From the NCBI GenBank assembly GCA_017506865.1, contig JAFCMP010000301.1:248001-312000 (forward strand): 64,000 bases of DNA, read 5' to 3'. This stretch comes from Tribonema minus (Eukaryota > Sar > Xanthophyceae > Tribonematales > Tribonemataceae). The notes below the pieces were generated by a model that was not told the origin of the DNA, ran no database searches, and was given only the letters and a program-made list of their open reading frames with translations. Below, piece by piece: positions 12,521 to 64,000 of this stretch (position 1 is its first letter; each line of letters begins with the position of its first letter). The translations under genes were made by a program, and so were the position numbers.

Positions 12521-14216
12521 ATGGGAGTCTTCTTTGGGTGTTTCTTCGGTTTTGCTACCGGCATTGCCTTTGGAGGGGGGGCGGCAGGCCAGTTGCCAGG
12601 GTCCGCTTTTGGAGCTAGCCTCGGTGAGTCTGTCACTCAGGGGTAACCCTAAGTTTAGGGCTTTGTTTGATTAAAAAGGCTTTGTCGACGCCTGAACCAG
12701 TACACATCCGTACAGTAGGTAGGGTTGAGGTTAGGGTCAGGGTTAGGCTCAGTGCTGCACCCATGCCCGCTGTACTATTTCATGGCTGACTGCGCGGTCT
12801 TTGTGCACTTGCTTGCATTGCTTGCACATTGAGTGCCACATCAGGCGACGATAGCAGCGAGACGGTGTAAGTGTAGGGTTAGAATTAGGGATAGAATATC
12901 GGGGACAGTGTCAGGGTCAGAGATAGGGTCAGACACAGGCAGCGAGCCGGCACTTTTTGCTTGCTTCCTCGTATGTTGTTGTCAGTTCTCTGCCTTTATA
13001 CTCATGTGAGCCGCTCATAGCTGCACAACCCGCAGCACCTCTCTGCTGGTAATGCTTCGTCTTGCAGCGTATGCCCCTGTGAAGCACCTATCATTACGCT
13101 TTTCGACTTGCAGTACATAAACCGGAGGCATTATGGTGCTCATACTGTGCATGCAGCCGTCTACGCGTCAAACGCCGGAAATACGTACTGTTACGCCCTT
13201 AACGTTGTAGTGCACAAATGCTGCTGTGCGTGCAGCCATCTACGCGTCAAATGCCGGTGACAAAGTCAGCGGGCAACTCTTCCTTGCAGCAGCTTTGGGT
13301 GCTCTTGGAGCAGCAGCACCAGTTATATGGGGTGCAGCATGTCTGCAGATGGAGGTACGTACGCTTATGGTGTACTTTTAAGTACATGTATGCACGGCTT
13401 GGGTATACACATGCATCCACAATAGTAAGGTGAAGGTATCGGGAGCACCTGATCATCACCATCATCAGATCAGCGTTCGCTGTAACAATGACCCTGAAAA
13501 GTATGCCTCTTGATGAGGCACAGTAATGCCCCTTGCATGTGTTGCACTTCCCACCGATTCTCTTTTGCAGACTCTCACTTCACCCCTTTCACCGGCGTGC
13601 TTGTTGCACTGTGAAATCGTTCTGTTCTTTGTAACCTGCGCAGCAATCGTTGCCTTCAGGAGCCGCAAGTACATGTATGCACGGCTTGGGTATACACATG
13701 CATCCACAATAGTAAGGTGAAGGTATCGGGAGCACCTGATCATCACCATCATCAGATCAGCGTTCGTTGTAACTTGTAACAATGACCCTGAAAAGTATGC
13801 CTCTTGATGAGGCACAGTAATGCCCCTTGCATGTGTTGCACTTCCCACTGATTCTCTTTTGCAGACTCTCACTTCACCCCTTTCACCGGCGTGCTTGTTG
13901 CAGTGTGAAATCGTTCTGTTCTTTGTAACCTGCGCAGCAATCGTTGCCTTCAGGAGCCGCAATTGCAGACACAACCCCCACCATCACAATGTGGTGCAGT
14001 TCTCCCTTCTTTTCCATTCATGTTAGCCTCACGTTACCCCCGTATCGCCTGTTGCAGGGTGGCGCCGTACTGTTCCTCATGACCTGTGCGGCATCCCTGG
14101 GCGCGGCAGCGGCACTACAACTGGCAGAGTCGTGCCTACTTCAGCGCAAGCAGCGCATCCGCAAGGCGCACCACTGCGTATTTGGTGCAGGCAGAGCTGC
14201 CCGCGAGAAAGTGTGA
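12521..14216 (+). CDS. Small multi-pass membrane protein, three exons (unknown function)
   Basis: Exons 12521-12623, 13236-13354 and 14058-14216 join in frame (103+119+159 nt) to give 126 residues. Donors GTGAGT and GTACGT and acceptors TGCAG and TTGCAG fit consensus, and the phases are 1 then 0. The product starts MGVFFGCFFGFATGIAFGGG, has three hydrophobic Gly/Ala-rich stretches (about residues 3-22, 52-70 and 75-95), and ends in a basic tail (QRKQRIRK). This predicts a small integral membrane protein, but I do not recognise the family. Introns contain decayed copies of the starts of exons 2 and 3. An upstream non-ATG exon cannot be excluded, since a possible acceptor lies just before the ATG. 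Confidence 0.6.
13152..13965 (+). repeat. Exon-edge echoes and a 300-bp tandem duplication in introns
   Basis: A degraded copy of the start of exon 2 with its acceptor (CAGCCGTCTACGCGTC) lies near 13160, about 76 bp before the real one. Two copies of a roughly 290-bp unit (about 13380-13660 and 13665-13965) each carry a diverged echo of the exon 3 start, encoding VLFFVTCAA where the real exon encodes VLFLMTCAA. The first echo has lost its AG acceptor; the second keeps TTGCAG. Confidence 0.75.
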
Positions 14217-16506
14217 CAGGGGGGAAGGGGGGGTTAGGGGGGTGCCTTCTTTCTGGTGCCCACACCGGTGGTCAATGTTGTGCAGCTCAGAGGGTGCAGT
14301 GTTGAGATGCATCGCACGTGTGGTTGATGCCATGCATCTTCGAAGTTGTACAATCTGGCAAAGTGTCGAGATGCGTTACGTCAAAGGCGCGGTGTCGTAC
14401 AGGTCCTGAGCGGCTTTGCGCCGACAATGCCTGGACGTGCAACTTGAAGTTGCACTTTGCAGCAGATGGCGTTGCTCAGCGCAGTGGCTGAGCGCCGGCC
14501 CTGGTCAGATATTCAAGTTGGCACGCCACCCACAACAAGCAGCGCCGTACTGCATGGAGCAAAGCTGCGCTGCATGGTGGGCACTGCCTTGCGCAATGCG
14601 CTCTTGACGCAGCGAAGATGGGCTCAACAAGGACAACTTCAACTTCACCCCGGCCAGCTCCACACAGTAGCAACTTCAATCAGGACCGAGCGCGCCCGAG
14701 CAGCATAGCGCATCGCAGCAGCGCCGCATCTCACGGAGACGCCACTTGACAGCAACATCTTCAAGTTTGCAGAGTCACGCTGCACTGCGGATGCAGAAGG
14801 GGAGAGCTTTCACCGTTGAAACAGGGGCGTCACCTCACCTCTTGCTTTGACTGAGCGTGCAATGGCTTTCTGCTGTTGCCTGAGTCAATCAGGCATGATC
14901 GCACGCTGGCTGCATGTGCTAGCTGCCACGGAATTCTGGAAGATGTCAAAAAACTCCGTTGCCAATCTTGCTGCGGTCATCAGTAACCGTTGTTGACACA
15001 ATAGTGCAAGCAGGAAGGTCTGACTGCGGGCGCGACTTGCCGACATGTCAACAAGCTGCATCAAGCATTGCAGTTGAAATTCACAATGCAGCAGCTCTAA
15101 GTTGAAGGGGCGTTGCCTGAGCGCCATGTGTGAATTGCAATTGCAGCACACCACTGGTGCTTGGGCCTGTCTTCAACAGAGCACAGCTCTTTCAAGAGCC
15201 ATATCAGTTCTTAAGTCTTCGTCGCCATCAGCAGTAATACAAGGGTTGAGCAGCAACAATTGAATGCATCAGGCGTTTGTACTGCAAATTGTACATGAAG
15301 ACAAAATGTGAGTCAGCTCAGCCAGGCTGGGACATGAAATGCCGCCGCACAGTGCTGTGGTAAAGTTGAGGCTGTGTACATACATGAACTCACAGAATTG
15401 CAAGCAATGCGCGTGCACACGTGCATGGCTGATTGTGTGCCTGCATCTGCTTTGACAGCGCATATTTAAAAGCACAATGCGGCACCGCTGCAGCATCATA
15501 GCTCTGCTCATGACACGCAACCAGCATATGTCGGAACTTGAACATTTGCAGTACGCAGCGTCAAAAGATGAAGTCAGCACATGTGCAGGCAGCAGCAGCA
15601 CAGAGCGCGCAGATGATCCAGGACTTTTGATTTACGACAGGGCACACATGTATGCACAAGGGCAAACGCCAACGAAACCGGCGCAGCTACACGTGATGCA
15701 ACATGGCACGCACACCCCGTTCAGGGGTTATTCTGGAGGAAAACGCAGGACACACACTTTACACCGACACAAGGGAGGTACGGGAAACGACATGGAGGTG
15801 GGGCCCCAGCAACACACAGCAGCAGCAGCACCGCTCAGCAGCAGCAGCATTGCTCAGCAACAAATGTAAACACCATGCAGCAGCAGAAGCCGCTTGCGCC
15901 TGCAGCAGCAGGGCTCAGCGGCAGCTGCAGCAGTGCTCATACACGGCCGCGGCTCTGCCGAAAGGGCTTCGCCTTGAAGTTGCCACGTGCCGTTGCCTTG
16001 AGGTTATGTGCTGCCAGGGCCTGGAGAATAGACAGCGAGACAGGGTGCTGCACCGGTACGCAACACAGCGGAGACAAATAGGACAGCACAAGGGGCTCTG
16101 CGGTATGTATCCAGGCTGCAGCTGGAGGCGCGCTGCTTCAACTTGAAGTGTAGACTTCAAGTCCACCCCTGATCAGGTGCACACGCACTCCGGCCTAGAC
16201 TAAGCGCCAGCGGGAGGGTTGATGACTATTGAGAACCGCCTGGACCATGGGAGTTGAAGTTTTGAACAAGCTTCAACTGTGTCGCGCCTGCTCAACCCGC
16301 CGCCACCCTGGAGGGACTGGGCACGCACGCCGCCACACACCCAAACCCAGAACAACGGTTCTCTGTCACAGGAGCGATACTAACGGGATGCACTCAGGGG
16401 GGGGGGGCTCGGATGCCCAGAGTTGTGGCGCCAAGGGGGGGGGGGGGGGCGTCCAGTGAACTTTAAGTTGAAGTTGAGAGGAACGGTGCTGCTGCGTGCT
16501 GCCGAA
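14217..16506. other. No recognisable gene; likely intergenic
   Basis: This lies between the 3' ends of two convergent genes (membrane protein on plus, CBM1 protein on minus). It contains G tracts (14219-14240, 16396-16450), CAG-rich patches near 15820-15920 and many CTTCAA/TTGAAG words. No frame shows a domain or splice pattern. The 3' untranslated regions of both neighbours must lie here, but I cannot fix their ends. Confidence 0.5.
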
Positions 16507-19500
16507 CTAGTGCTGCGCGGATTTGGGCAGGCACTGGGAGAAAGTGGAAGAGCTGGCGTCGCAGAACCAGCCCGGGATGCAGCACGTGGGGCCCTTCCAC
16601 TCTGTGCCTGCAGCGCAGCGGCGGGGGGGGGTGGGGCAAGGGGGGCAGGGTTGCATCAGTGTGCTTGAAGAACTTGGCACTATTCACGAGAAATGCGTCA
16701 GCGTTGCTTCAGTGGCGCAGCATGCAATGCAAAGCAGGACCAATAGAACCAGCTGCAGACGGTGCACGTGGGGCCCTTGCACTCCGTGCATGCAGCGCAG
16801 CAGAGGCGGATACGTCAGTACTCAGTGAGCGCACCAATCATTGACTTTCATCTCATTGGCCCACAAAGAGTCTTGGTGTTTAATGTTTTTAACGATCTCG
16901 TTTGGTTGCGCCCACACATGTTGACAGCTGATGCTGCAGCACAGCACAAGTGCTTCGCAAGAGACGCATTGAAAATGAGACAGTGGTGCATGACGCAATG
17001 CGAAACCTTAGCATCATATGGGACCAGCTCACGGAATCCTTTCGCTACGACAACAGCGACCAATAGACAAGTATATAGGGTATACTGCAAGAAGTATAGG
17101 GCATGTAGGCTGGCCAGTGTTCCTGCCGTTGAAGGGGTTAGGGTTAGGGTTAGGGTTAGGTAACCCTAACCCTAAGCGAGCAGCAGTGCATTCGAATTCT
17201 TCTCAACAACATGCGGGGCTACAAGAAGGGTCTCCCGCTCAGCACGTGCACAAAGCTCAGGACATATGTCTACATGCATACATACATACATACATACATA
17301 CATACATTCATACATACATACCTCCGCACTGCTCCCATGCGTACGCGCACAGCGCCCCCGCCTTCTTCGGCGGCACGCGGCACTGACTGTAGTACGGGCT
17401 GAACTCCTGGCACACACTGCCCTCGGGGCAGCACGTGGGGCCCCTATGGTCCGCCCCGCCGCACCTCTCAAACAGCGCCACACACTTCAAGTCTGCAACT
17501 TCAACAGGAGGCGGGGGGCCCTCCCCCGGCCTCTCGGTGACCTCGGGAAGGGCCAGCGGGGAAGGTTCCGCGGTTCCGGGAAAGGGCGGGTCGGTGAATT
17601 CCATGGGGTCGGGGCGTTCGGTGGGGCGTTGGGACCAGTTGAAGGGGACGCAGGTGCTGAGCGTTGCTGACTCGAATTCGCACACGTTGTCGTCGGTGCA
17701 GCACAACGGGCCGTCGTAGCCCTCGCCTGCAGGACGTCACACAGTGTTGAAGCGTGAACTTGTGAAGCGTGAAGTGGAGTGCTGCAAGGTATATTATTTT
17801 GACCTCGCACACGTTGTCGTCGGTGCAGCACAGTGGGCCGTCATAGCCCTCGCCTGCAGGGACACAGGTCGCACAGTGTTGAAGCTTGAGTTGGCGTGCT
17901 AAAGATGTCGGAGAGGTTTTGAGAAGTAGCGCACCAATCTACTGATCAACATGACAATTCAACCGCACGCACACATGCCAGACCAACCGGCGGCCTCTTC
18001 TGAGGCCGTCATAAAGCACAGGTCCGGCAGCACTGTAGAAGTAATTCCTTGCGTAAAATTCTCTCATGTGATGCTCGAAATGACAAGTCACTATTCGACA
18101 ACGTGCCAGGGGCCGCAGCTAGCTTGCGCGTCACACACTGAGGGGCAGGTATGTACGTGCGTCAGGAATTAGGGTTAGAACTAGGGCTAGGCTCCAACCT
18201 CGCACGTTGCCACGGGTCCACGCACACCAGCGGATGCGTAAGCACAATGGCAACATGGGCAGGTGAGTACTATATTTTGAAGTATGTAAGAGTTGCCGTG
18301 CTCACCTCCATGGCTCCGCGCACACTAGCGGATGGGTAAAGCATGTATGTAAATCGGCAAGTACTCATGTATGTTCGTCATAATATTGTTAAGCGCACCT
18401 CCGCACTGCTGCCACAGTTCCGCGCACACCAGCGGATGGGTAAAGCATGCATGTACATCATCAAGGTACTCTAAGTAAAGTATGTAGTGTTTGTGCATCA
18501 CAGAGTTGTCAAGCGCACCCCTGCATTGCTGCCAAAGTTCCGCGTACACCAGCGGATGGGTAAGCACGTACTTCAAAAGAAGTACACTTCGGAGTATGTG
18601 AATCATTTTGATAAGAGTACGTCGGAGCTTTCCCACACTTACCTCCGCACTGCTGCCACAGTTCCGCGCACACCAGCGGGGGGTCCACCGACTTGGGCAC
18701 GCAGGTGTATATCTCCATTGCCTGGTAGGTGCACGTCAGGCCATCTTGGCAGCAGGCGGCACCGTCGAAACCGGGCCCTGCGCACAATGAGGGTTAAGGT
18801 TTTCGGTTAGGTCTTCGGGTTAGGGTTAGCGTCAGGTCTTGTCAGCAGGTACATGAGGATTAGGGTCTTGGTTACGTCGTGATGTAGGGTTAGGTTACAG
18901 CCAACAGGGCCTGGCAGCAGGCAGCACCGTCAAACTTGGGCCCTGTGTGTAGCAAGGGTCAGGGCTTTGGTTATGTCGTGATGTAGATTTAGAATAGGGT
19001 TAGGTCTTGGCAGCAGCTGGCGCCGTCAAAACCGGGCCCTGCATGCAATGAGGATTATGGTTTGGTGACGTCTTGATTTAGGACTGGGGTAAGTTTAGGG
19101 TTTTGGATACGTCGTGATGTAGGGTTAATTGGGGTTAGGTCTTTGATGTCGGGTTAAAATTAGGGTTAGGTCTTGTCAGCAGGTACAGTTTTGTTTTTTT
19201 CATAGGTTTTCCGCCCCTGAGCGGCTTGGGGGCGGAATGAAATGGACTACAGCTAACGTGGCCAGTGCGCCGTTGATGATTGAACACGAAGCAGTGCACA
19301 GCATGGTTGCCTCTTGGGTGAGGGTTGTGGTGAGAGTTTGGTTTGACAACAAGTGGAGCCATTGAACCCTGGGGAACTTGAAGTTTACTATTACGCTTGA
19401 AGCAGTGCTCAGCAATTTTGTGTCAGCGCCCACAGATGAATAATGCAAATTGACGCGAGGTGCTTGAGGTAGAATTGGCTACGAATTGTGGGGTGTATCT

Positions 19501-22500
19501 TAGGTTACGGCAGGCTTGCCGGCAGGGGGGTCCATTGGCCCTGCCTGCACTTTATACATGAACATGATGCAGTGAAAAGCGATTGAACTGAGGCCAGAGA
19601 TGGTGCTAGGGGTGGGTTGGGCAACACACGTTGCTGTGCTTGGAGGGCACCAGGCCAGGATATGCATTAGCGTTATGAGGTTCGAAGTTATTTTTGGTCA
19701 ACTTTGGACATTATTGCAGGTACTTGTTGCCTGACATTTGTCACACTGCTACACTTCAACAGCGTCTGTCATCACACCTTATCACCTAGAGCTCTGCGAT
19801 CTTTTGCTTTGTTTCCATCTAGGCTGTCTTAGTTTGCTGGAAGTCAGGGCACGGTGCAAACATGAACTCTATCAATCGTGCTCATGCTAGAGAAATTAAC
19901 ACCTAGCCTGCCCTTTCTTGGTGCACTTCCACTTCACGCGTGAGCAATCCAACCGAGAAGGCTCGCACCTTCAAGTTCTCAACATGCATATTTCAACTTG
20001 ATGTATTTGAAGGCTTGCATCTGTGACGAGACCGCTTGCAAATCGTCGAAGTCAGCAAACTACTGGAGCAACATACATACATCGAGTTATATACTTTCAA
20101 GTACTTGAGGTTTTCGCATCAGTGCTCACCGCCACACTGCTGCCACGCCCCTCCGCACACCCCCTCAGTGGCCACCAATGTCGGCTCTGCCGTTGCCTCA
20201 TCAGTGGGCTCAACTGTGGGCTCAACTGTGGGCTCAACTGTGGGCTCAATTGTGGGCTCAATTGTCGGCTCAATGCTGGCCTCTGGAGTGGGTGCGGCAG
20301 TGGGGAGCGCTGTTGTGGGGGGGTCTGTGGGGGTAGGTATGACCTTGGGGGGTAGGCATAGGTATACCTCCGGACTCATGAAGGTACATACCAGCTGGCC
20401 CAGGCAGCACATGGGCCCAAAGTAGTTGCGGCCTGCGGGATGGGAGAGTCACAGACGGCAGCTTGGGTGGGTTAAATTATTTGCAGGGGGAGTGATGCAG
20501 TTGTGAATGTGTGCTCTTGTTGCCTCTGGAGTCATATTCTGGGATTGCTTGTCTTGTGGCAACATAGGGTGCGCAGCACACGTTACGCACCACATGGTGA
20601 ATGGTCAGCATGCGCGAACTGCCAACCAGTTTTCAACTTGTAGATGGCATGCGTGGAGATGGGGTCAGAAGCACATGCAACTGCAACTGCAACTGCAAAA
20701 TACGGGAGCCGCCCACAGCAAACAGTACACAGTGGTCCCCATCACTCCAACTTCAAGTCATCGCTCAAGCAAACCCTGACCCTAGTTAGTGCTCACCCCC
20801 GCACTGCCGTCCCAGGTCCGCGCACAGCTCTGAAGGGGGGCTCGTGGGCACCGGCACCGTAGGCAGGGGGTCCGTAACCGGTAGTGTGGGGGGTATGGTG
20901 ACTGGTAGCGTTGGGGTCACTGTTGGCTGAGGCGTTGGCGCCGGTGTGTCGGGGCAGAACTGTCGGGGGAAGTCCGTGGGGCGGCAGTGGCTGCGAGGGG
21001 GGGAGTGCGGCGCAAGAAGGGTTGAAGTAGGGTTTGAAGTTGAGGCAAGAAGCTGGGGTGTGCAACAAGCATTGGCAAATAAAACCTGCAACAGAAGCTG
21101 TTGTTGCCATGTGAGGGGCGGAGTGCGGCGCAAGCAGGGTTTGAAGTACGGTTGAAGCAGGGTTTGAAATCGGGGCAACTCATAGGAGCTGGCGCAAGAA
21201 GGGTTGAAGTAGGGTGGCAGCAGGGTCTGAGATTGGGCAATTTGACTAGGAGCTGATGCAAACAGGGTTGAAGTAGGGTGGCAGCAGGGTTTGAGATTGA
21301 GCAACTTGATAGGAGCTGATGCAAGAAGGGTTGAAGTAAGGTAGCAGTGGGATTTGAGGCTGGGGCAGCTTGAAGGAGCAAGTAGGGTGGCAGCAGGGTT
21401 GAGGTTGGGGCAACTTGAAAGGAGCTGATGCAAGCAGGGTTGAAGTAGGGTGGCAGTAGGGTTTGAGGTTGCGGCAAGGAGCTGGGGTGTGCAGCCAGCA
21501 TTGGCAATGGAAGAAGCTGAAGCAGCATTTGTTATCATGGGTACCAACTGCTCCTGCTCGTAAACCAGAACACAAGCAATCGAAGAGTAAAGACTGACTC
21601 TGTCAAGGCTGCTGTGGAGCTGGTTCAATACAAGGCCGCAAGGAACCATCTTAGCTAAAGATCCCACGGTCATCAGTTACACCAGTTGCAAGACAGGAGC
21701 AATGGAGAACCCCTGCACATAAAACATATCCAGACATGGTCGCAATAATTCGAAGCCACTGCTGGAAAGCAACTTGCAGGAGCGCAAACATCAAATGCTG
21801 TAGACATCTGCGCTATCTGCACTGCATCAGGACCGAGGTTATGACTGGTACCTCAGTCAGGGTCTTAAACTAGGTTTACTGTTCACCTGAAGTGGTCATT
21901 CTTGACCTTGCAGTAGGAGCCATCCGTGCAGCACGTGGGCCCTGTCCAGCTGTCACCTGTTGAAGTTGATGTTGAAGTAAAATCGATCACAAATTGCCAT
22001 ATCAGCTGCAAGTAGTAATCCAGCGTCAAAGCCCTCACTGCTTCTTTCACTGCTGTCAGCGCTTCCCGGGTGATGATGGTACACTATAGTGAAGACGCGC
22101 ACGAGTGGGGTATGCACGGTGCCGGGGAAAACGCCGCAATCATGTGCTATGGTGCAGATGCAAGAGGCTGCAGCTTAGAGATACAATTGCCAAGTACTGC
22201 TCCTAGGGGCGGGTGAGGGGTGATGAATGTGGTGCAGATGCAATGGTAGAGGTTATGCAGTTGGTTACATGCCCCATTCGCGGCCCTAGGCAGGGTAGGG
22301 TTGATGCCTACCTTACTACGCAATCAGTGGCGCTTTCACCACACCATCTACTTGGAGTATCATCTTCCTGCAAGAGTGCCTTAGGCTACGACACGTAGTG
22401 CTTCAATATGCAGGTGAATGGCGTCACACACCACATTCCTGGGTTATAGACCCTCAACATATGCCGCCAGCACGGGACTTCACATCTGCTGTCGCATTTC

Positions 22501-25500
22501 AAAGGAATGCTGTAACAAGAGTCCCGTGCGCCATTGACTTGTGCAAGAAAGTGACAAGTATGGCGGCTTTCACAAGCACAAGTCCACAAGTACCAGGCAA
22601 GTCACGAGTAGTTCAACTACTTCAAAGTATGAGGTAAGGGGGTGAAAGATATCAACACTAACCTCCGCACTGCTCCCACCACTGGCTGCACATGTCCCCG
22701 GGAGCCCTGGGTGTTGGCCGGCACTGTGAGTACCACGGGCTGTCTATCATGCACGTGGTGCCTGGGATGCAGCACGTTGGGCCATCCCATTCTAGACCTA
22801 GTTGTGACAAGCAGCGCACAGAAAAGAAAGTGAGGTGAGGGTTAGGGTTAACGTAGAACGGCCAGACCTAGTTGTGACAAGGAGGCGCACACACACCAGA
22901 TGGAGGGTCAGGGCTAGAGTTAACATGGAGAGGCTAGACCTATTTGTGAAAAGCAGCGCATAGACCAAAAGGTGAGGTTAGGGTAAGGGTCAATGCGGAG
23001 AGGCTAGACGTACTTGTGACCAGCAGCGCACAGACAACAAGGTGAGGTTAGGGTTAGGACTAGGGCTGAGAGGCTATAAAATGGGCAGGGTTACTGCTAG
23101 GCACAGCGTGTTGAGCAAGGCATGTGTGCACAGACTTGGGCTTGTAGAGTCATGCTCACACATAACGAGAGGCCAGAGCACCAGCAATTGTGATGAGCAT
23201 CACGAGCGTGTGTGTGTGCTGCTGAAGGGTACCTGACCGAGCAATTACTGAGCACATGCCGCCAGCGCCTCTTGGAGCATCTTCAAGTTTGTACGCATGT
23301 ACAAGGCAGGAAAACAGTGGTTCTCATATCAGCACCGCTTGTGTGCCTTGGTGCGCTCCGTCAGTACTGGCGTATTCGAAGGAGGCCATGTACTTCACAA
23401 CTGTTTATTGCTGCCATCCCAGCGCATCATTGTTTGTGTACTGAACCGAATAGACGAACTCTGCATGTGGCATAACAAATAGGTCATACGTGGTTAGGGT
23501 TAGGGATAGGGTTAGGGTTAGGGTTAGGGTTAGGGTTAGTTGTCAAGGGCGCAACAGCATGTGCCTACATGCACATGTACCTCCAAAGTGCTTTGCTGGT
23601 ACGCCCGGGCAGCAATGTCCATGCAACGCCAGTTCAAGATGCAAAATTGCTTGCTCCTACATACATACCTCCGCACTGCTTGTACACCTTGGCGCACAAC
23701 GATGCATCCGTCGGCGCACCCGTCGGCTGCGCGCTCGTAACCTCAACAGTCGGCTGCGCGGTCGTAACTTCAACAGTCGGCTGCACGGTTGTAACTTCAA
23801 CTGTTGCTGCCGGTGTCAGCGGCTCATCCGTGCGCCCCGTAGGGTCATCATTGGGGTCACTGGGGTGCTCTGTGTCGAAGTAAGTGGGGTCTAGGGTGGG
23901 TGCGCCAGTGGGTTCTGCCAGGGAGTCGGGGCGGCACTGCCAGTAGTACTTGTTGTGATACACGCATGACGCGCCTGTGACGCGAGAGAACAGCAGTCGT
24001 GAGCCAATGGCGGATCAGTAATTGGTGTGGTCGCCTCTTCTGCCGGAAAACATATGCATGTACGTAGCAGTGCTTTGAAGTGCTTCGCTTTAAGATATGC
24101 AAGTTATGCGCAAATGGAAGCGTCATAGGAGCGCATAAAGCATGAGCAAGTGAGGCTGACTTGATGCACTTGTGTGCTGTAAAGAACGCTCAAAGACCCT
24201 ACGATTTGAAGACGTGATGGCATTATTATCCTGTGTGAGAGCCACGTTACAATGGCCGTCGCTTCGGTACTTGTGGTGGCGCTGCGCAATGACAACTGTG
24301 TAGGTACAGCCCGAGCAAGCAACCTCAAGTTAATCTTCAAGTGTATGCCAGAACTCACCGGTCTCACAGCAAGTTGACCCTGTCCACAAGAAACCTGTTG
24401 CAGGAACGCAGGAAACAGCGATTATTAAGATTGATTATGAACCATTACACAGCGCTCACGTTCAGGTTTTGCACTCAAGCAAAGGGGTCAGCGTTGCCAG
24501 ACCGTATATGCAGCATCACCCATGTGCAAGTGCGGTTGCTCAGCTCTGTAGCAACCCCCAAGTATCTCAAGGACTTCAGAAAATGAGTCAGACTCATTAT
24601 ATGCAGGCACTCCAAGTACCCTAGCAGCAAGTCTGTCTCTGAACCCTACCCTTGCAATCTCTGTGAAGCAAGTGCACACTTTGCTACGACACTCGTGTTC
24701 ACTGAAGAGCGCAGAGGTCACTAAATCCACATGATCTCCCATGAATTGTAGCGAGTTCACATGATTGTCAATAATTTGCATGAATTCACCATGACTTCAC
24801 TTGATGAATCCACTTGCACGCACCTCCGCACTGCCCATAGGTCAAAGAGCACGCCTCCGGAGGGATCCAGGGCTCCGTCACCACCACCGTCGGTTCAGGG
24901 GGAAATGTAGGGGGGAATGTAACCGCCTCCGTAACCGCCGGCGGTGTAACTGTCCCGCTGGCACCCGCGGCACACTCGCTGTACCACAGGCTGACTTTCA
25001 CGCACGATGTGCCGTCTTCACAGCACAGCGCGCCGCCCCAACCCTCGCCTGTAAGCATTTCAACAAGTGCAAAATAATGAATCGAAGTCAAGCAGATAAA
25101 TTGAAGCTCATACACGGCGTGCCGTCTTCACAGCACAGCGCGCCGCCCCAACCCTCGCCTGTGAATTGAAGTCACAAACGTGAATTGAACTCAAGATGAT
25201 GAATTGTAATTCACGCATGACGTGCCGTCTTCACAGCACAGCCCGCTGTCCCAACCCTTGCGGGTGAATTTTAGTCGCCGACGAATTGAAGTCACAAAAG
25301 TCAACCCTTGCCAGTGAGTGATTCAGGTGAATTAAAGTCCCAATAATAAATAAAAGTCAAGCAGATGAATTGAGTTTAGGCACACGTGCGATCCCAACCT
25401 TCGTCTGTGAGTCGTGTGTCAGCGAGTGAATCGAAGTTCATCAAGCGAACTAGAGTCTTCCCTGTTCGCCATGTGTCTGCGCTAGTCACAGGAGTCAAGT

Positions 25501-28203: not shown

Positions 28204-28234
<31 letters not shown>

Positions 28235-40117: not shown

Positions 40118-40125
40118 AGTACATG

Positions 40126-45234: not shown

Positions 45235-45794
45235 GGCATGATGCCGGATAGCTCATGAAGTTGTTCCCCTGGCGCAGCGGGGGGGTGTTTGGACTGCATG
45301 GCGGCAAAGCAGTCATCATCAGGTATCGCCACCGTTTTGAGCTGAAGGAAACGCGCTGCCTGCTGTAGCCCCCCCCGTGTGCCCATGCACTGTAGGACGT
45401 AGGCGTTGATCACTGCCTCCGTTTGCTGGCGCGCGCGCCAGCGCCGGTGCGCACGCGCGTGTGCGAGGAGCGCTGGCACCAACCGGTCAAGCTCACCGCG
45501 TGCCAACATTCTGATTCTGTCGGAGCGAGTGATGCCAGGTGCGCCATCGGTGGAGGTGATGAGTGATGGCATGAGGTGGTGTAGAATCGTGGATCTTTGC
45601 AGTCGCTGCACCCGCCCTGCGGAATCTGGCTCCCGCGCCGCATTGACGAACATCGTCATTGTGTGTGCCAACAGATGTGTTGCTGCGTTCTCCAGTGCAG
45701 CTCCCACATAGCGACGATTGCGTGGTCTAGCAAGGCTTCTAGTTGTCGCGAACTGCAGCTTGCACAGCTCATCGAGGCTGATGCTGTCAAGCAC
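45231..45794 (-). CDS. Middle ORF of family A element
   Basis: An open frame of about 187 codons lies between the zinc-finger ORF and the RT ORF. It is offset by -1 from the upstream ORF, which it overlaps by 139 bases, and the RT ORF is offset by -1 from it. It has no ATG near its start (the first usable codon is GTG), and a TAG lies just upstream in frame. It must therefore be reached by frameshifting from the upstream ORF, or be part of a single ORF broken by indels. The product is Arg/Ala-rich with no recognisable domain. In related elements this position is part of the N-terminal extension before the RT. Confidence 0.6.
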   Translation of the reverse strand: MLDSISLDELCKLQFATTRSLARPRNRRYVGAALENAATHLLAHTMTMFVNAAREPDSAGRVQRLQRSTILHHLMPSLITSTDGAPGITRSDRIRMLARGELDRLVPALLAHARAHRRWRARQQTEAVINAYVLQCMGTRGGLQQAARFLQLKTVAIPDDDCFAAMQSKHPPAAPGEQLHELSGIMP

Positions 45795-47146: not shown

Positions 47147-47203
47147 GATCTCTGCTACGCCATGGTGCTACATGTTACAGCTACATACCTATCCACATGT
47201 ACT

Positions 47204-47529: not shown

Positions 47530-49365
<1,836 letters not shown>

Positions 49366-53285: not shown

Positions 53286-53536
53286 TCTTCATCCATGTGT
53301 CCCCCCCTGGACTCCGCCATGTGCGTTCACAACACGCAAAAGAGCATGCCATGTGGAGCGCTGATGACAGAGCGTATGCGTACAAATGCTATGGCTTTTC
53401 GAGAAGGCTAGATGACTGGCTGCTCAAGCTCCAACATCATGATCGTATCCTCCGTTGCGACAGCCTCCGGCAGCTTCCGCCCCTGCGCCTTGATGCTGCC
53501 AAATGAACCTGACTGCCAAAATGGAAGTTTGTACGG
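53286..53536 (-). mobile_element. Decayed relic of a family A-like element end
   Basis: On the minus strand it resembles the last ~80 codons of the family A polyprotein (SFGSI..QGRKL.EAVAT and MAESRGG..ME motifs), with many indels. It directly abuts the 5' end of the family B element in opposite orientation. Confidence 0.75.
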
Positions 53537-56500
53537 AGGCTGACTCCAGGCAGCAAACAGCATGCGCTGCCCTCTCAGGCAAGCGACGGGGGGTAGGCTT
53601 GGCTGCCGCACGACTAGAGTCGCGTGAAGCATGCGCCCCAGCAGACGAGGTCACGGCACAGGTGCTGGCAGCAAAGCACCCTGAAACTGGCACCCGGCCG
53701 GGGGTAGTCGATACGCCAATGGAGCAAGTGCGCGGCCTGGTACGCGACGCCCGGCGGCACTGCTTACACAGCGCAGGGGTGGCAACGACCACCGGGCCAG
53801 CTGGCAGCGGCAGTCCTGTCTTCGAATCGGGTCAGGCACATGATCACAGCGATAGGCCTGAGGATGCTGCCAGCGCAGCCGGACGGCGCCTCGAGGTGGA
53901 GGCGGCAGACATACTGTCGACCTTGTCCGCAGCAGGGGCGGGGAAGGCAGGAGGGCTGGACGGCCTACGCTATGAACACCTCTTGATGGCCGCTGGGCCT
54001 GGTGCACCAGTGAAAGCAGCCACCCGCCCCGTGAGCAGTGCCTCGCCAGGACTAGCTGGTGATTCAGAATCAGATGTGATGGAACCGGCATTCGCTCATC
54101 ACCTGGCCAAGGTGTTCACGACGCTGCTTGTTGAGCCCGAACTGCTGCCGGAGCAATCGCAACGGCTTCTCCGCGCCGCGGCCCTCTCAGGCATAGGACA
54201 GAAGCGGCGTCCGATCGCCTGCTCCAGTGTCTGGCGCAGACTCCTCGGGTCCACAGCGGCACGGAGTGTCAAGGGCAAGATATCGGGGCTGCTGGCCTCC
54301 ATGTCGCAGTTTGGCGTAGGATACCGGTCTGGCGTCGAGCATGTGGCAGCGCGCGCGCGCGTGTGGCACGAGCTGTATGGCACCACAATCCAGCTGGACT
54401 GTGAGAACGCATTTAACAGTGTGGATCGCGCCGCCATTGTGCGGGGGCTTATGCTCTTCTGTCCGGAGCTGCTCCTGCACTTTGAGTCCGTATACTGTGG
54501 TGACACTGCCCCAGAGATGCGGGTGGAGGTGAACGGTGAAGCTCGCATTATCTGCTCCCACCTAGGGTGCCAGCAAGGGGACCCTCTAGGGCCGCTGTAC
54601 TTTGCAGTGGCAGCGGCCTTCCTACTCTTCTACCCTGATGGAGTGAATGCGACGCCCGGCAGTATGCCGGCCTACGGCCACAGCACAGCGGAACCGCCAG
54701 CCCCGCACTGCGCTTTCCTGGATGACCTCAACGTGCTGCAAGCTGCCTACTTCGACGATGCAGCGGCCGCTGGGGTGGCAGAGGTGATCCGCCGGCTGGC
54801 GGCAGGGGGCCTACGCGTTCGACCAGACAAGTCGCTGGCCATCGCCATGCGCGGCTCAGTGTTTGATGAAGCGGCCAGAGCACGCCTGCGCGCCCTTGAC
54901 ATACCGTTTGTGGACACCACCATGCCAGAATCCAGTCAGGGCTTTACGTCGGTCGGGGTACCGGTAGGGCACCCAGCCTATGTGCACGCTGCCATGAGCA
55001 AGCATCTTGTCGACGCAGGGACATGGCGATTGTCGTGGCAGCTAGCTGGAATGGCGCGGCATCACCTACAGGCAGCACAGTTCATTCTACGCAGGTCACT
55101 GACGAAGCGCATGGGCTTCTTAGCTCGGGTCGTTGACACGGCTTTGAGTGAGACATGGTTGCACGCGTTTGACGGGTTCTGTGCATGGACGCTCGAACGC
55201 ATGCTGCATCTGCACGGCTGCTCTACCGCGGCAGCCATGAAGTCACACCTGCTGGCCGCCTGCACTGCTGGTGACAATGAGGAAGCCAGCAGTGGCAGCG
55301 TGCTGGTATTGCCGCGCTTGGGCCCGCCAGAACTCACGGACATCGCAGTGCCACTGCGGGCGTCACGGTTGCCGGAGCGACGAGGCGGTCTGGGCATGCC
55401 GCTTTTGGGGCTACTGGCACCAGCCGCATACACGGCCCAGGCATGCACAACACTGAGGCCGGCAATAATTCATGCCACTGTGGCAGCAGGGGCCCTGAGG
55501 CTCGGCACTGACGAACACGGCGCAGTCACCTGGTTCGCGCAGCACTCATGCGCAATACGCGAGGACCAGGGACTGCCGCCAATCATCGAGGCCGTGCGAC
55601 GCTCTACGCGAGCGCTGACAGCTGATGGCGGCGAAAAATCACGCACAGCTGTGGCCGAGCAGCTCCCAGCATCGTTGCTACGGTGGGCAGCAGATACGAC
55701 GGCCGCAGCGTCGACGCTCCCCACTGCGGTGCAAGCGATCTACGCCGCAACTGCCGTCACGGAGACAGTGACCACTGAGCCAGCCCCACACACCCACGGC
55801 ATTGTGCCTGGCGCCGAGGCGGCCGCTGCGGCGGCGACCGTACCTGGCCCTCAAGCCGCTGCCGCGGCTGCCTCTTCCACGCCCGCTAAAACACAAACTA
55901 GCGCGGAAGAAAGCAGCTGCAGCGGCGGGCAGGAGGACGACGACGACGACTGGGAGGCCTATGCTGACGAGATCTGCAGAAAGGTAGTGCCCCGCCGCCG
56001 GCGCGGTCACTTCACGCACGGACTACAAGCCGGCCTTTCAAATGTTCTTCGACGTCAATACGAGGACTGCCTGGTGGAGGACCTAGAGGCTGCCTCGGCT
56101 GGTGCCGTGGGCAAGCCGACGCAGGCTACACTTATTGGTGACTTGCGTGACACCAGCCGCCGCCGCCAACAGGCTAGCGCGCGGGTCCTGGCGCAGCTGC
56201 GCAGCCAGCGTGCGTCCGGGGCAATGGCGTGGATGAGCGTGCCACCCGCTGCCAATGACCGCCCGGGTGCGGCGCCCATGTCCAGTATGGCAGCAGCCAC
56301 GATGATTATGGTTGCGATCTTTATAGACGGGTGGGGCATACAGGGCGAGGTGTGCCCATGGCGGTGCAGTGACGTGAGCCCCACCTCCACGCATGCGATC
56401 AGCTGCCCCAGCCAGCACATACGGGGGCACAACGCGACACACACTGCCCAAAAGCGGTGCCTACAGCGCATCTTGAGACAGCACCATGTCTCTATTGTCC

Positions 56501-57027
56501 GCAATGAGGACGCTAGCGTCTTCAAGGTACCGGGGTATCGGGCGGACACAGTCATTGACCCAGGGTGTCTGCACTTTAGCAGTGCATACCGTAACAAGGG
56601 AATAGTGCTAGACACAAGTGTGCGCGCGCCCACAGCGAGCTCGTACCTGACAGGCAAAACAAATGCCTCGAACACGGACGGCTATGCTGCTGGGGTGGGG
56701 GAGGACGCGAAGGTCAAGCACCACACAGGCACCTTGACGTCATCTTGGGCTTTTGTGCCATTCGTGCAGGAGTCGTACGGACGGCTGGGCAAGCAGACAA
56801 GGCTTTTTGTTAAGGAGTTGGCAATGCACTCAGCACTGTGCTCAGGGGGGGGGAAGGCAGATGTGTTACGCAAGGCCGGGTTAGCTAAGCGTCAGATCCA
56901 CATTGAGCTGAGCATATCGCTGGCGCGGGAGTTGGCGGAGCGCGTCATGGCATACACACGTGGAGCGCGAATGCTGGGCTGTGTTGCGGCGCCGGTATCC
57001 AAACTCCTAGGGCACAGCGCAGACTAG
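53503..57027 (+). CDS. Family B reverse transcriptase plus restriction-like endonuclease polyprotein
   Basis: An uninterrupted frame of 1174 codons. RT motifs are GLDGLRYEHL (about 150), QLDCENAFNSVDR (about 297-309), GCQQGDPLGP (about 354-363) and the active-site FLDD (about 405-408), followed by RPDKS. A region rich in Ala, Thr and Pro plus an acidic EDDDDDWE patch follows (about 740-820). Next is a C..C..H..C knuckle (CPWRCSDVSPTSTHAISC, about 950), then an endonuclease-like core with YRAD and IVLDTSV (about 1012-1035). The first ~11 codons derive from an antisense family A relic, so the true N-terminus is probably missing and the element is 5'-truncated. No N-terminal zinc finger is seen. 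It differs from family A in sequence throughout but has the same architecture. Confidence 0.93.
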   Translation: MNLTAKMEVCTEADSRQQTACAALSGKRRGVGLAAARLESREACAPADEVTAQVLAAKHPETGTRPGVVDTPMEQVRGLVRDARRHCLHSAGVATTTGPAGSGSPVFESGQAHDHSDRPEDAASAAGRRLEVEAADILSTLSAAGAGKAGGLDGLRYEHLLMAAGPGAPVKAATRPVSSASPGLAGDSESDVMEPAFAHHLAKVFTTLLVEPELLPEQSQRLLRAAALSGIGQKRRPIACSSVWRRLLGSTAARSVKGKISGLLASMSQFGVGYRSGVEHVAARARVWHELYGTTIQLDCENAFNSVDRAAIVRGLMLFCPELLLHFESVYCGDTAPEMRVEVNGEARIICSHLGCQQGDPLGPLYFAVAAAFLLFYPDGVNATPGSMPAYGHSTAEPPAPHCAFLDDLNVLQAAYFDDAAAAGVAEVIRRLAAGGLRVRPDKSLAIAMRGSVFDEAARARLRALDIPFVDTTMPESSQGFTSVGVPVGHPAYVHAAMSKHLVDAGTWRLSWQLAGMARHHLQAAQFILRRSLTKRMGFLARVVDTALSETWLHAFDGFCAWTLERMLHLHGCSTAAAMKSHLLAACTAGDNEEASSGSVLVLPRLGPPELTDIAVPLRASRLPERRGGLGMPLLGLLAPAAYTAQACTTLRPAIIHATVAAGALRLGTDEHGAVTWFAQHSCAIREDQGLPPIIEAVRRSTRALTADGGEKSRTAVAEQLPASLLRWAADTTAAASTLPTAVQAIYAATAVTETVTTEPAPHTHGIVPGAEAAAAAATVPGPQAAAAAASSTPAKTQTSAEESSCSGGQEDDDDDWEAYADEICRKVVPRRRRGHFTHGLQAGLSNVLRRQYEDCLVEDLEAASAGAVGKPTQATLIGDLRDTSRRRQQASARVLAQLRSQRASGAMAWMSVPPAANDRPGAAPMSSMAAATMIMVAIFIDGWGIQGEVCPWRCSDVSPTSTHAISCPSQHIRGHNATHTAQKRCLQRILRQHHVSIVRNEDASVFKVPGYRADTVIDPGCLHFSSAYRNKGIVLDTSVRAPTASSYLTGKTNASNTDGYAAGVGEDAKVKHHTGTLTSSWAFVPFVQESYGRLGKQTRLFVKELAMHSALCSGGGKADVLRKAGLAKRQIHIELSISLARELAERVMAYTRGARMLGCVAAPVSKLLGHSAD

Positions 57028-58969: not shown

Positions 58970-59623
58970 GGTTGTTTGCTGTCGCGCTTTGTAACCGCAT
59001 TCAACTTTCTGAAGTCCTGAACTCTATGCAGTAGCAGAGCTTCTCGCCTGGAACCACTAGCACCCGATTACTTGCCCACGCCCTGTGAAGGTTTAATCTG
59101 TCGGCGCCCTGCCATCATTTGAATCTGTTTCATGCTGTACTCGGCGTTTTTAAAAGCCCAGTGTGCAGGGTCGGCGGTGCCACGGCAAATGTAAGTCCTT
59201 AACCCTTTGAAGGTGAGCATCACGAGAGCCAATGCATGCAAGTGAGTGCCCATCGCTCTAGATATACTTGAAGTACCGGCTTGCTTGGGATGCTGGCGTA
59301 TGTGCAGTAGCACAGCAATACTCCGAAACGTTGCAGCACTTACTTTCCTTCATCGTTATCCTCTGAGCAAATCAGTCAGCTGCAGTGGCATCAGCATCAG
59401 CACAGCTGAGCACCCTATACACGCACTACCGTCAGACCAATTCAGCAGTCGTTGCACATGTCGCAAAGGTCCACAGTGAACTAAAGAAGTTGCATGCTGG
59501 ACTATACTGATAAGATAAGCAATTTACATCAGCATAGGACGAATCCAAAAGCGCAGCAGGAGTCTCAGGAGCGCATGAATCTGTGACAGTGCACAATGAC
59601 CTTTGGCAAAGTCCAGCACTCAT
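58970..59623. other. No recognisable gene
   Basis: It holds the upstream region of the small secreted gene and the 3' untranslated region of the SH2 gene. No distinct element is seen. Confidence 0.45.
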
Positions 59624-62600
59624 TCAGTCCACCGGCACGTTGCTGGGGAGTAACAGGTCCCCCTTGTGGTACTTGCTGAGATACACACGCGCTGACATGT
59701 GCAGCATGAACTCTGCAAGAGTACAGTAGTCACACGGGGGTTGTCGAGGTCCATGCCGAATCGTTGCACATGGCGCCAACAACTATGTAGGGGTGGCAAA
59801 GTGAACTGCGAAGTTGATTATTGACAAAACAAGTAACCTTCCTCAGCAGAGGATGAAGTCCAAGAGTGCAGCGGAAGTACCACTCAGACACGCATGAATT
59901 TGTGACAGTGCACAAATGAAGTCTAGCAAAGTCCAGCGCACATTCATCAGTCTAGTGGCGCGTTGCTGGGGAGTAACAGATCCTCTTCGGGGTACTTGCT
60001 GCGCTGACATGTGCAGCATGAACTCTGCAAGAAAACACTCGACTCTGAGAGAGTACAGTGTACTCTGAACAGCATTGGCCACAGGAGTCGCACGGTGGTT
60101 GTCGAGGTTCGTGCCGGATGTCACGGGTACATGCTTATGTGAACTGTGACAGTACAGAGTTGACTCCGACAGTGCAGCGCGTGCATTCACCAGCAAATTG
60201 ACTGTCGCAGTGCACGTCGTAGTGAATAGCGTACGCTCAGCAGTGAGTGCAGTTTGAGTCTGTAGAGTTCCGTTCAATACTTCGGAGTACATTACAGTAG
60301 AGGTCGGTGCAGTGGGTACGGATTATAATAGGTCTAACCCTGACCCTAGGTCTAACCAGCACCTTAATCTTAAACGCAGATCAGGTATAGTATAACTTAC
60401 CCAAGGTCTATCTCTTAACCTTAACCGAAAGTGCAGGTTGGGTCTAACCCTGACCCTAACCCTAGGCCTAAACCTAACCCTAACCCTAACCCTAAGTGCA
60501 GCGCGCACACTCACCGGGGTGTTGCTAACTTTGCCGTCACTGCGCACGTGGCAGATAACCAGCGTAGAGAGCATGCTGGTGGAGATGCGGAACAGGAAAG
60601 TTCCTGGAACGCTCCCGTACAAGACACGGTCTGCAAGCCCATCGGAGAGCCCCAGAATAAAGCGCGGCAGCGCTGGGACGTCACGTCCCGGGCTGCCGAC
60701 ACTGCGCAGAAGTTCGCAAAAGGGGGAATCAATAAAGTTTTGTTGTAGCAGCAATTGGAGCAAACGAAGTGCGCATGATATGTCCCGGGCTGTCGACACT
60801 GCGCGGAAGTTCGCAAAGGGGGAACCAATAACATTTGATGTTAGCAACATTTGAAGTAAACGAACCGCGCAGGGTATTATGTGTGAACTGAATAATGCGG
60901 CATCACAGCAGGCTGTTAATGTTGTGACCAATCAACACCCAACGTGGGATACGATGAATTCCTCTTTGTGAAGGTGCAATTATAACTTCAATACGAAGGC
61001 CACAAGGCGCAAATGGGAACCTTGCCTGGAGGCCTCTTCACCCTTGTGCCTTGCTACCCTAACCCAAATCCTCAAACGCCTACATACAAGCAACGTGTTG
61101 AGCCAGACATCATTAAATACTGAACACCCATGCCTCAAACGCTAAAAAGCTTGCACACAGAAGTCTTTTTGCCTACTGTGGTTACGGTGGCACTGTTTGA
61201 CTCGTGGCCAATGACTGCAGCAGCAGCGACCACGGTTATTGGTGGAAGGCACTTGCGGCTCACCATCCCTTGTCACCTAGAGCTCAGCGATCTTCTTGAT
61301 TCATTTTTCATTAAATCCCTTCAAACGGGCACCGCATGCCCCCAACGCTTGCAGCACTGCTGCTGCTACTCACTCTTAGCGTCAAGAGACCGTTGTGCAT
61401 GTCACTGATACCTACTTAACGCTGGTACTAACACAAACCCTCCATGATCACGTACTCCATGATGATCATATGTGATCATACTTACTCACCCTACGGACGG
61501 GCACCACAGCCCCAACGCGCGCAGCAGCCGCTACTACTACTTACCCTCAACGATATTAAGACCTTAGTGGAAGCTGTGATCACAATACCTATTTACCCTT
61601 CCGACAAGCACCGCAGGCCCGACGCGCGCAGCAGCCGCTACCGCTTCTTGCAGTTGACATCGATTAGACCATTATTGTGTTCTCATTTACGATCATTCAA
61701 AGTATGTCATAAGTGCATGCTCATTATATCTCTACTATTGGTGATGGCAATACCTACTTACCCTTCTGACGGGCACCACAGGCCCGATGCGCGCAGCAGC
61801 CGCACAGCTGCCCACAGCCACGGCCAGAACGACTCGAAGAATGCAGCGTGCTGTACCACGGCGTGAGGCGCGCGCGGTGCAGCAAATGGGTCCCAGATCT
61901 TGCCGCTCTTGCCCAGGAAGGCCAGGTCTTCAGGGGTCGGCGGTCGTGAGGTGCCCAGGCGCAGCCTGCGGCAGCAGGGAATACGCATGCATAGTAGTGT
62001 GCAGTTGATATAGATGTGCGTATTCTAATACATACTTGAAGTACATCTTTCCCAGGAAGGCCAGGTCCTCTGGTGTCGGCGGTCGTGAGGTGCCCAGATG
62101 CAGCTTGCGGAAGCGAGGAGTATGCATTCATTGCGTGCAGTTCATAGATATACATCGGTGTGCTCTACTACACATATGTAGATGCTTGACATTTGAATTA
62201 TAAAAAGTCTACTGGTCTTCTGTGCTTTCATGATCTTGCCACTCTTTCAGGTCTTCTCTGGTTGGCAGTCGTGAGGTGCCCAGACGCAACCTGTAAAAAC
62301 AGGGTACACATGCGCTTATGTGACGTAAGGCATATGCGGGGCGTTACTCCGCGGCTGCCCCCACGTCACTTCAGTACCACTACAAGAGTGCAGCGCTGCA
62401 CACGAAGATACACCAGTGATGCAGCAAAGGCGAACCCTAACCCTAAAGGCACCAGCAGCAGACGTCACGCACACTTGCGGCGGTCCGCAGGTTAGCCTTT
62501 TCCTACAAAAACAACTGGTAGAGCTAAACAGCGTCCTTATGTGAACCCCTACTCCGAATCCAAACTGTCCACTGTACCTGAAGTAGTTGACAATGCCCAG

Positions 62601-63152
62601 CTCGCACAAAGCAACTGGGTATAGATGGAAAGCAACCCCCTCAAACCCCTATTCCAAATTTTCAACTTCAAAATTTGACTCTCCACTGTACCTGAAGTAG
62701 TCGACGATGCCCAGCTCGCACAGCTGCCCCCACGTCGGGGCCCACGAACTTGAACTTGAACTTGAGGTTGAAGATGGCGACCCGTTCTGCCAGCCGTTCA
62801 CCACCGCCCCATTGACCGCCACCGCGCTAGCCCTCCTTCTTACGGAGGCCCAAACCTGTTGCCCGTGCAGCTTTCTAACATCAGCGGGGGGCGGGGGGGG
62901 GCGCGTATTCACCACCAGGGGGGGGGTTGGGGGGGGCGGGTCGGCGTCGGGGGGCGGGGGGTGCGCGTCGTCAAGTTCAAGTTTGAACTTGGCATCGCGA
63001 GCTGCCAGCGTGGCGAGCTTTTCGGGGATGAGGCGTGCGCGTATGAAGGACGCGTCGCGTAGCAGGTTGCGCTCGTGGAGAGACTGCGTGACGGCAACGA
63101 TGGCGCCGGGGTTGCCCTTAAGGAGGCTTACGATCTGGCCGCGGGAGAACAC
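59624..63152 (-). CDS. STAT-like linker-SH2 protein (5' end not resolved)
   Basis: Exons on the minus strand: A 63152-62692, B 61965-61762, C 60701-60515 and a probable last exon 59712-59624. A, B and C join in phase (2 then 2). Exon B encodes a STAT-linker-like helix stretch (FFESFWPWLWAAVRLLRASGLW). Exon C continues RFILGLSDGLADRVLYGSVPG and then the SH2 core GTFLFRISTSMLSTLVICHV, with the phosphotyrosine-binding Arg in FRIS. The end of SH2 would need a further exon that I could not fix, and the last exon has uncertain phase. Exon A begins VFSRGQIVSLLKGNPG and contains a Pro-rich and Ser-rich spacer. SH2 domains bind phosphotyrosine; linker-SH2 proteins occur in slime moulds, plants and animals. 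A signalling or transcription role is inferred. Exons upstream of A lie beyond the window or in the echo array to its right. Confidence 0.65.
59843..60130 (-). repeat. Duplicate of the SH2-gene last exon region
   Basis: A second copy of about 59560-59790. It includes the acceptor and the exon start encoding FMLHMSA, but has a 10-base deletion that breaks the frame before LLLPSN. Confidence 0.8.
60440..60496. repeat. Interstitial telomeric repeat (CCCTAA)n
   Basis: Degenerate then perfect CCCTAA units lie immediately downstream of the exon C donor of the SH2 gene. Further degenerate units extend to about 60335. Confidence 0.9.
60702..60815 (-). repeat. Echo of SH2 exon C acceptor and start
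   Basis: GCGCAG|TGTCGACAGCCCGGGAC at about 60800 copies the real start GCGCAG|TGTCGGCAGCCCGGGAC at 60701, with about 100-bp spacing. Confidence 0.85.
61191..61310 (-). repeat. Dispersed intronic element, copy 3
   Basis: Read on the minus strand it matches copy 1 over about 120 bp (GAGCTCTAGGTGACAAGG, GTGCCTTCCACCAATAACC and GTCATTGGCCACGAGTCAAA). It lies in the intron between exons B and C of the SH2 gene, in sense orientation. Confidence 0.85.
61320..61761 (-). repeat. Echoes of the SH2 exon B end and donor
   Basis: The exon B end (complement of GACGGGCACCACAGGCCCGATG) recurs near 61595-61640, 61495-61535 and 61325-61365, with decreasing similarity and with TTACCC-type donor complements. 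Confidence 0.8.
61966..62300 (-). repeat. Echoes of the SH2 exon B acceptor and start
   Basis: The exon B start (encoding LRLGTSRPPTPEDLAFLGK) recurs at about 62046-62105 and 62245-62295, with spacings of about 140 and 185 bp. The nearer copy keeps GGCACCTCACGACCGCCGAC unchanged. Confidence 0.9.
62560..62605 (-). repeat. Echo of the SH2 exon A end and donor
   Basis: TGCGAGCTGGGCATTGTCAA then CTACTTCAG|GTACAGTGG repeats the real exon A end and donor (62692), 120 bp downstream in gene orientation. Confidence 0.9.
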
Positions 63153-64000
63153 CTGCGCGACAGTTTCATGGAGTTGGAAAAATTAGCTTCATTTCAAGTA
63201 TGTGAAAAGAGACGTGGATTGTGCAAATAAATTGTGCATCCACTGCGTGACGGCGACGATGGCGCCAGGGTTGCCCTTGAGGAGGCTCACAATTTGGCCG
63301 CGGGAGAACACCTGCAGGGGGGGGGGGGGGGCAGTTGCAAGGAAATGGTCAGAAAGAATGTCGTGGGTTAGCAAAAAATTAAGTGTGGCAAAGGACGCGG
63401 AACGTACAAGAAAATTGTGAAATCTATGAAATCCATGAAGTCTATACCCGGGTTGCCCTTGAGCAGGCTCACAATCTGGCCGCGCGACAAGACGTGAGCG
63501 ACAGTGTCACGGGATTGGAAAAAAAACTTCATGTCAGTTGTGACAAAAGACGTGGATTGCACAAATACATTGTGAAGTCTACAAGACAAGCAAAAGACGT
63601 GGATTATATGAATAAATTGTGAAGTCTACGACACAAGCAAGTTCCAGCCCTTGAGCAGGCTCACGATCTGGCCGCGCGGGAACACCTGCATGGCGGGGCG
63701 GCAGTCACATGGAGACCTTCAATTTTAAACATGTGGGCGTGGATTGTAATTATGGTCTAAAAATTGGAGTTTATGGAATCTATGAAATTAGGCCCGGGGT
63801 TGCCCTTGAGGAGGCTCGCAATGGGGCCACGCGAGAACACCTGCGCAATGCGGGGGCGACAGTTTTGGAAATAACTTCAATTTCAAATTGTTAGAGGACC
63901 TGGATTGTACACATTGTTTGTGAAATCCATGAATCTGTGAGACCAGGCCAGGGTTGCCCTTGAGGCTTACGACCTGGCTGCGGCAGAACACCTGCACGAG
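63153..64000 (-). repeat. Array of five echoes of the SH2 exon A acceptor and start, to window edge
   Basis: The complement of CAG|GTGTTCTCCCGCGGCCAGAT recurs near 63312, 63497, 63688, 63843 and 63994, at about 150-190-bp spacing. Each has the following GGCAACCC codons (VSLLKGNPG) and differing decay. Only the copy at 63152 continues into a long exon. Whether any of the others is a used upstream exon is unknown. Confidence 0.85.

Follow-up and report, generated by a model that had tools for sequence, protein, structure and literature searches.

The introns of several genes of Tribonema minus (Xanthophyceae) contain tandem, partly decayed copies, here called echoes, of the exon ends that they adjoin. 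They were followed in a window of 64,000 nucleotides (contig 301, positions 248001–312000, in an assembly of 158 Mb and 554 contigs; G+C content of the window 0.56) and in other parts of the genome. The feature is real and occurs on many contigs. We interpret the echoes as repeats of the type called 'mirages' in amphioxus, that is, as local tandem duplications across an exon border that mostly decay without constraint, and give this reading a probability of roughly 0.8. The geometry of the copies, their occurrence on both the acceptor and the donor side, their broken reading frames and their presence in unrelated genes on many contigs are established.

The original prediction placed echoes beside 13 splice junctions of the window and is partly confirmed, with clear copies in the adjoining intron at 12 of them. 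The 120 base pairs (bp) around each junction were compared with the window by BLAST, and queries of 60 bp of exon or of 40 + 40 bp across the junction were aligned to the adjoining 1.5 kb by the Smith–Waterman method. An echo was counted if it scored above all of 100 dinucleotide shuffles, and distant pieces of the window served as a further control. BLAST gave expectation values (E) below 1e-5 in the adjoining intron for 11 of the 13 junctions, a weak match for acceptor 36265 (E 0.006) and none for acceptor 14058. The predicted number of echoes was recovered at acceptors 63152 (five, with the junction query), 25048, 18777 and 61965 (two each) and 36265 (one, diverged, with a score of 37 against 24 for the junction query and no exon-only match), and likewise at donors 61762 (three), 32021 (three, one of which includes exon sequence), 18643 (four within the intron, with a further copy at 17313–17351 at the end of another exon) and 62692 (one clear; a second, doubtful one falls within another exon). 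Acceptor 30188 does have echoes, but two instead of the predicted eight or so, and only one of the two expected for donor 35061 was found. At acceptor 22797 all three appear with the junction query and none with the exon-only query; because the copies hold only ∼5 bp of exon, the repeat here is mainly intronic, lying directly against the exon. The two echoes claimed for acceptor 14058 reduce to a single marginal score of 29 against a shuffle maximum of 26, with no exon-only and no BLAST match. Distant pieces of the window reached scores of 43 for 22797 and 42 for 18643, which are attributed to exon similarity within the gene or to repeats close by. A separate, young tandem duplication (a 294-bp unit present twice with 96% match, 13380–13962) lies upstream of 14058.

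Arrays surround two consecutive exons of a gene on the reverse strand. The exon at 62692–63152, an open frame read by eye from VFSRGQIVSLLKGN... to ...LCELGIVDYF, is echoed at both its 5′ and 3′ edges and continues in the same frame into the next exon, whose acceptor is 61965. Its acceptor echoes, located like the others described here by BLAST and Smith–Waterman alignment except where stated, lie at 63242–63315 (70 bp of exon start), 63447–63550, 63647–63689, 63794–63846 and 63947–63999; AG is lost in the second of these and kept in the rest. A copy of the exon end with an intact donor is found at 62564–62608. The next exon (61762–61965, placed by the gene finder) is also echoed at both edges, with acceptor copies at 62046–62146 (AG changed to AA) and 62248–62313 (AG kept) and donor copies at 61576–61638 and 61478–61531 (both with GT) and a weak one at 61317–61341.

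Further arrays lie on the same strand in a gene at 17322–27310 with CBM_1 (fungal-type cellulose-binding) modules split over similar exons, several of which end in a terminal ..QCG motif. The exon at 18643–18777 (gene finder, Pfam) has acceptor echoes at 18912–18977 and 19005–19074 and donor echoes at 18517–18555 and 18197–18233; another donor copy at 18397–18435 is identical in 39 of 39 bases, with an intron flank that is not homologous to that of the true donor. The exon at 17322–17726 has an acceptor echo that was absent from the earlier list (approximately 17805–17853, with limits taken from the alignment distance). Also on the reverse strand are the echoes of acceptor 25048 (25113–25206 and 25210–25261), together with three repeat units of the intron tail beside acceptor 22797 (22864–23058). 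On the forward strand, acceptor 30188 has echoes at 30024–30089 (AG lost, as judged by eye) and 29810–29848 (AG kept, also by eye), donor 32021 has a copy of exon end plus intron start at 32419–32506, donor 35061 one at 35156–35228 and acceptor 36265 its diverged echo at 36130–36181.

The nature of the copies was examined in 37 echoes at 20 edges on contig 301, the edges having been chosen for carrying echoes. In 29 of the 37 the intron flank is homologous to the flank of the true junction, compared with at most one of 60 random flanks that aligned equally well; the duplicated units therefore span the exon–intron border. The nearest copies recur with a period of ∼115–250 bp, in keeping with the 70–300 bp originally given, and the exon-bearing echo of 32021 lies farther off, at ∼440 bp. 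Echo and exon differ mostly by ∼7–17% (range 0–18%). A fall of similarity with distance, as had been claimed, is weakly supported, since the nearest echo is better than the second in nine of the 11 arrays that have two or more echoes, but the longest array is not monotonic. The frequent loss of AG or GT had been overstated: the dinucleotide is kept in 29 of the 37 echoes (AG 17/21, GT 12/16), close to the neutral expectation of ∼0.8 at roughly 10% change per lineage. The loss fits neutral change, and selection for or against decoy sites leaves no sign.

Reading frames are mostly disrupted, with nine of ten gaps breaking the frame and four in-frame stops among the 37 echoes. Exon–echo differences over all 37 are distributed 38/34/129 over the three codon positions, and those of the nearest echoes 26/14/68. 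Among the nearest echoes, those whose flank is homologous differ from the exon at 36 of 560 sites (6.4%) in codon positions 1 and 2 and at 57 of 277 (20.6%) in position 3, and their intron flanks differ at 112 of 589 (19%). Equality of third-position and intron divergence is what a free copy beside a constrained exon predicts.

The frequency of echoes was estimated from exons predicted with a simple gene finder, a hidden-Markov model that was trained, without the claimed junctions, on long open frames. It chose eight of the 13 claimed junctions exactly; at the exon 62692–63152 it picked the acceptor but set the 3′ end at 62802, and it took echoes for exons at 63665–63685 and 62036–62103. The gene models behind the count are imperfect. 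From 180 junctions 139 were kept, after prior removal of 28 of low complexity and 18 in a repeat-like region at 36.9–57.7 kb, some being both; two loci (L028 and L029, 20 kb) were left out of the counts. A copy of the exon edge with a score of at least 40 was found in the adjoining 1.5 kb at 17 of the 139 junctions and on the opposite side at one (Fisher p 9e-5). Both sides are duplicated (acceptors 8/73, donors 9/66). The expected excess over distant introns was present in these sampled junctions, where five of 1315 distant comparisons reached the score. Three of the 17 positives are doubtful, leaving 14: position 101498 of contig 301 lies within a dispersed repeat that has an identical copy, and 150882 and 150937 bound a predicted intron of 55 bp in an internally repetitive protein, to which the sole opposite-side match (151289) also belongs. 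By position, echoes were found for 21 of 179 queries at the exon edge and 13 of 179 just inside the intron, with frequencies of 1–4% deeper than 240 bp in the intron and 2–5% in exon interiors. In six gene stretches, selected because each had a seen case, 54 edges gave 19 adjacent copies and none on the opposite side (score at least 34); with random pieces as a control, one low-complexity edge reached 40 and the remainder stayed at or below 30.

Two conserved genes of contig 301 beyond the window show the same pattern. Joined predicted exons match PPIL2 in one gene (PDB chain 7abi_t, E 2e-74) and CSTF3 in the other (2ooe_A, E 1.3e-43; Pfam Suf, E 1.4e-51). Exon-only edges of 40 bp recur in their own intron at five of 12 edges in the PPIL2 homolog and five of 14 in the CSTF3 homolog, with none of 26 on the opposite side (score at least 34), a rate that is biased upward because the genes were noticed for holding a case. 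The clearest example beyond the window is the PPIL2-homolog donor at contig position 160371, which is followed by three aligned exon-end copies with intact GT and by fainter ones seen by eye.

Whole-genome Pfam searches, which are independent of gene models, extend the observation to other contigs. They covered Cpn60_TCP1 (at least 73 matches), kinesin (at least 140; 122 of 191 candidates scored) and tRNA-synt_1 (at least 37). Neighbours were accepted within 1.5 kb if their model ranges overlapped by 70%, and five copy–copy pairs were set aside. In these three conserved families (at least 250 matches), at least 18 partial copies occur at at least 14 exon borders on at least 12 contigs. All 18 listed copies lie on the expected side, those upstream sharing the exon start and those downstream the exon end to within five model positions, and none of the 18 is a copy of a whole exon. 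The copy on contig 168 is weak (end off by four positions, period 499). The 12 contigs do not include contig 301, and thus echoes are not confined to it; as profile searches catch only the better-kept copies, the count is a lower bound. The genome-wide presence that had been proposed therefore holds to the extent that echoes reach far beyond the window, although the junctions sampled on four other contigs yielded none (below). A further Pfam search gave 92 matches to PF00504 (light-harvesting family), which mark the genome as photosynthetic; its helices we take to be internal repeats, and overlaps between PF00504 neighbours were therefore left out of the copy counts. PF12499 (Pherophorin) had no match in the profile search, in which its control was also silent.

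Some observations weigh against mirage-type repeats decaying without constraint. None of 30 predicted junctions on four other contigs (40 kb) had an echo, compared with 17 of 109 on contig 301; either echoes are unevenly frequent or so small a sample is misleading, and the result counts against an even spread. Three aligned donor echoes of 18643 lack a homologous intron flank. The ratio of position 3 to positions 1 and 2 is ∼3.2, compared with the ∼2 predicted for a free copy and a constrained exon, and changes private to a single echo are also third-heavy (21/23/46). Finally, of 29 intron-only repeat clusters from 59 introns, 11 are situated no more than 20 bp from a border, compared with 2.3 under a uniform distribution. 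The codon pattern would suit functional alternative or mutually exclusive exon ends under selection, as would the distribution of exon–echo differences given above, which is 0/0/6 in the echo at 63242–63315 and 1/1/12 at the PPIL2-homolog donor. Such ends are nevertheless improbable in view of the frameshifts and stops, on account of which the echoes were rejected as coding exons, of two hand-inspected copies that either have no second splice site or do not keep the frame, and of the absence of whole exons among the listed Pfam copies. Much of the third-position excess is expected in any case, because the exon changes almost only silently (exon-private changes 1/1/12), and the third-heavy private changes are in part what copying of the exon on separate occasions would produce. 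Coding constraint on the echoes had been considered on the strength of this excess, but taking account of silent change on the exon side made it smaller (third positions hold 57 of 93 differences, against ∼46 expected). There is a weak indication of a modest residual excess of constraint, or of silent exon change, for which we have no explanation.

The clustering near borders, and an echo frequency that is highest at the exon edge, would follow if splice borders were favoured for duplication beyond mere tolerance, for example through DNA:RNA hybrids or splicing-linked breaks. Allowing for an exon overhang of 60 bp raises the expected number of clusters to 5.4 (p 0.007) and one of 100 bp to 7.1 (p 0.06, not significant), and exon-edge copies stay detectable for longer because one copy is constrained. 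A tolerated, untargeted process may therefore suffice, and a preference for borders, although possible, is the less likely account, at perhaps one chance in a few. Tandem duplication of whole exons followed by decay is brought to mind by the repeated similar exons of the CBM_1-type gene at 17–27 kb. It is rejected as very improbable, since each of the 18 listed Pfam copies shares a single exon edge and none both ends, and the two edges of one exon can carry separate arrays on opposite sides. Tandem arrays are in general prone to misassembly; an assembly artefact or chance similarity is nonetheless hardly credible as the source of the echoes, given a divergence far from sequencing error, echoes on at least 12 contigs in the Pfam test and the low yield of the shuffled and distant controls. 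Mobile introners were likewise set aside: the one 201-bp query used (61700–61900, with very common words skipped) showed no near-identical copies at many unrelated loci, its matches being confined to the query itself and two echoes of the same intron.

For mirage-type repeats we envisage that a commonplace local event, for example slippage during replication or an unequal exchange, would make tandem duplicates of segments, mostly 115–250 bp long, that straddle the exon–intron border. Coding selection would continue to act on the copy attached to the main part of the exon, because only that copy can serve as exon; the others would land within the intron, where they would decay under little or no constraint. 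Events on the acceptor side would place copies of intron tail and exon start upstream, and those on the donor side would leave, downstream, copies of exon end together with intron start. Through repetition of such events the intron may have lengthened, with splicing presumably at the true sites alone. Of the original proposal that introns grow by local duplication, duplication across borders is thus supported, and growth in this way is plausible. More tentatively still, and with the odds against it, boundary-spanning duplication might be a main genome-wide engine of intron lengthening in this lineage, convergent with amphioxus, with borders as active hot spots and with each silently changing exon and its decaying copies forming a layered record that dates each event.

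The original prediction knew of no named description of such a structure, which was wrong. The mirages of amphioxus are the same structure: minisatellite-like tandem duplications across intron–exon boundaries in Adh3 and the globin genes BflGb6 and BflGb9 (PMC3087553), with further cases in lancelet troponin C and PGBD5 (PMC3902484). The duplications lie on the 5′ or 3′ side, with units of 150–160 bp in the globin genes, and many units keep AG/GT; reverse-transcription PCR suggests normal splicing, copy number differs between two haplotypes, and the mechanism is called unclear, with a route to intron gain proposed (PMC3087553). The Tribonema echoes resemble these in their boundary-spanning tandem copies of similar unit length (flank homologous in 29/37), in duplication of either the acceptor or the donor side (8/73, 9/66) and in retaining AG/GT in many but not all units (29/37). 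They differ in that the cephalochordate cases are described gene by gene and were examined for splicing and haplotypes, whereas here several unrelated genes of a photosynthetic eukaryote are involved and the repeats are known from the sequence of one assembly alone. Tandem repeats concentrated near intron–exon junctions are also reported for the green algae Chlamydomonas reinhardtii and Volvox carteri (PMC3887541); the repeats counted there are generic tandem repeats, and the passages on them describe no copies of exon edges. Tandem genomic duplication as a source of new introns, and internal tandem repeats at exon–intron boundaries of human paralogs (PMC2812944, PMC4974935), share the local duplication that multiplies splice signals, but there a new intron is made, whereas here existing introns receive copies. 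Among the matches listed in the open-licence literature, none describes boundary-spanning copies for any photosynthetic eukaryote. The kind of repeat is thus already known; what is new here is the host and the number of genes affected.

The window contains other repeats. Short telomere-like TTAGGG/CCCTAA arrays lie outside predicted coding sequence at 17135–17160, 23492–23539, 26239–26280 and 60444–60495. Identical tandem-repeat units and scores at 889–1020 and 43342–43473 suggest a dispersed long element, and the long open frames at 41791–45252 and 53494–57027 may be parts of elements of this kind. The predicted peptides at 39569–39942 and at 101498–101833 of contig 301 are almost the same (AAKTTHYSGHYDQNCYKLATLAIGSFGSIGEQ...) and probably represent a dispersed repeat. 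GCT is repeated 56 times at 48418–48586 with 98% match. At gathering scores, no Rfam family matched within the window.

Echoes can be mistaken for exons, which is a warning for gene prediction, and the arrays constitute a natural assay of the choice of the spliceosome among near-identical sites. Since each array sets a constrained copy beside nearly unconstrained ones, it would provide an internal clock for intron growth. The findings suggest that the amphioxus repeat type also originates in a photosynthetic lineage far removed from that animal, where it affects many genes, and it may therefore be a general route by which introns are lengthened and candidate splice sites multiplied.

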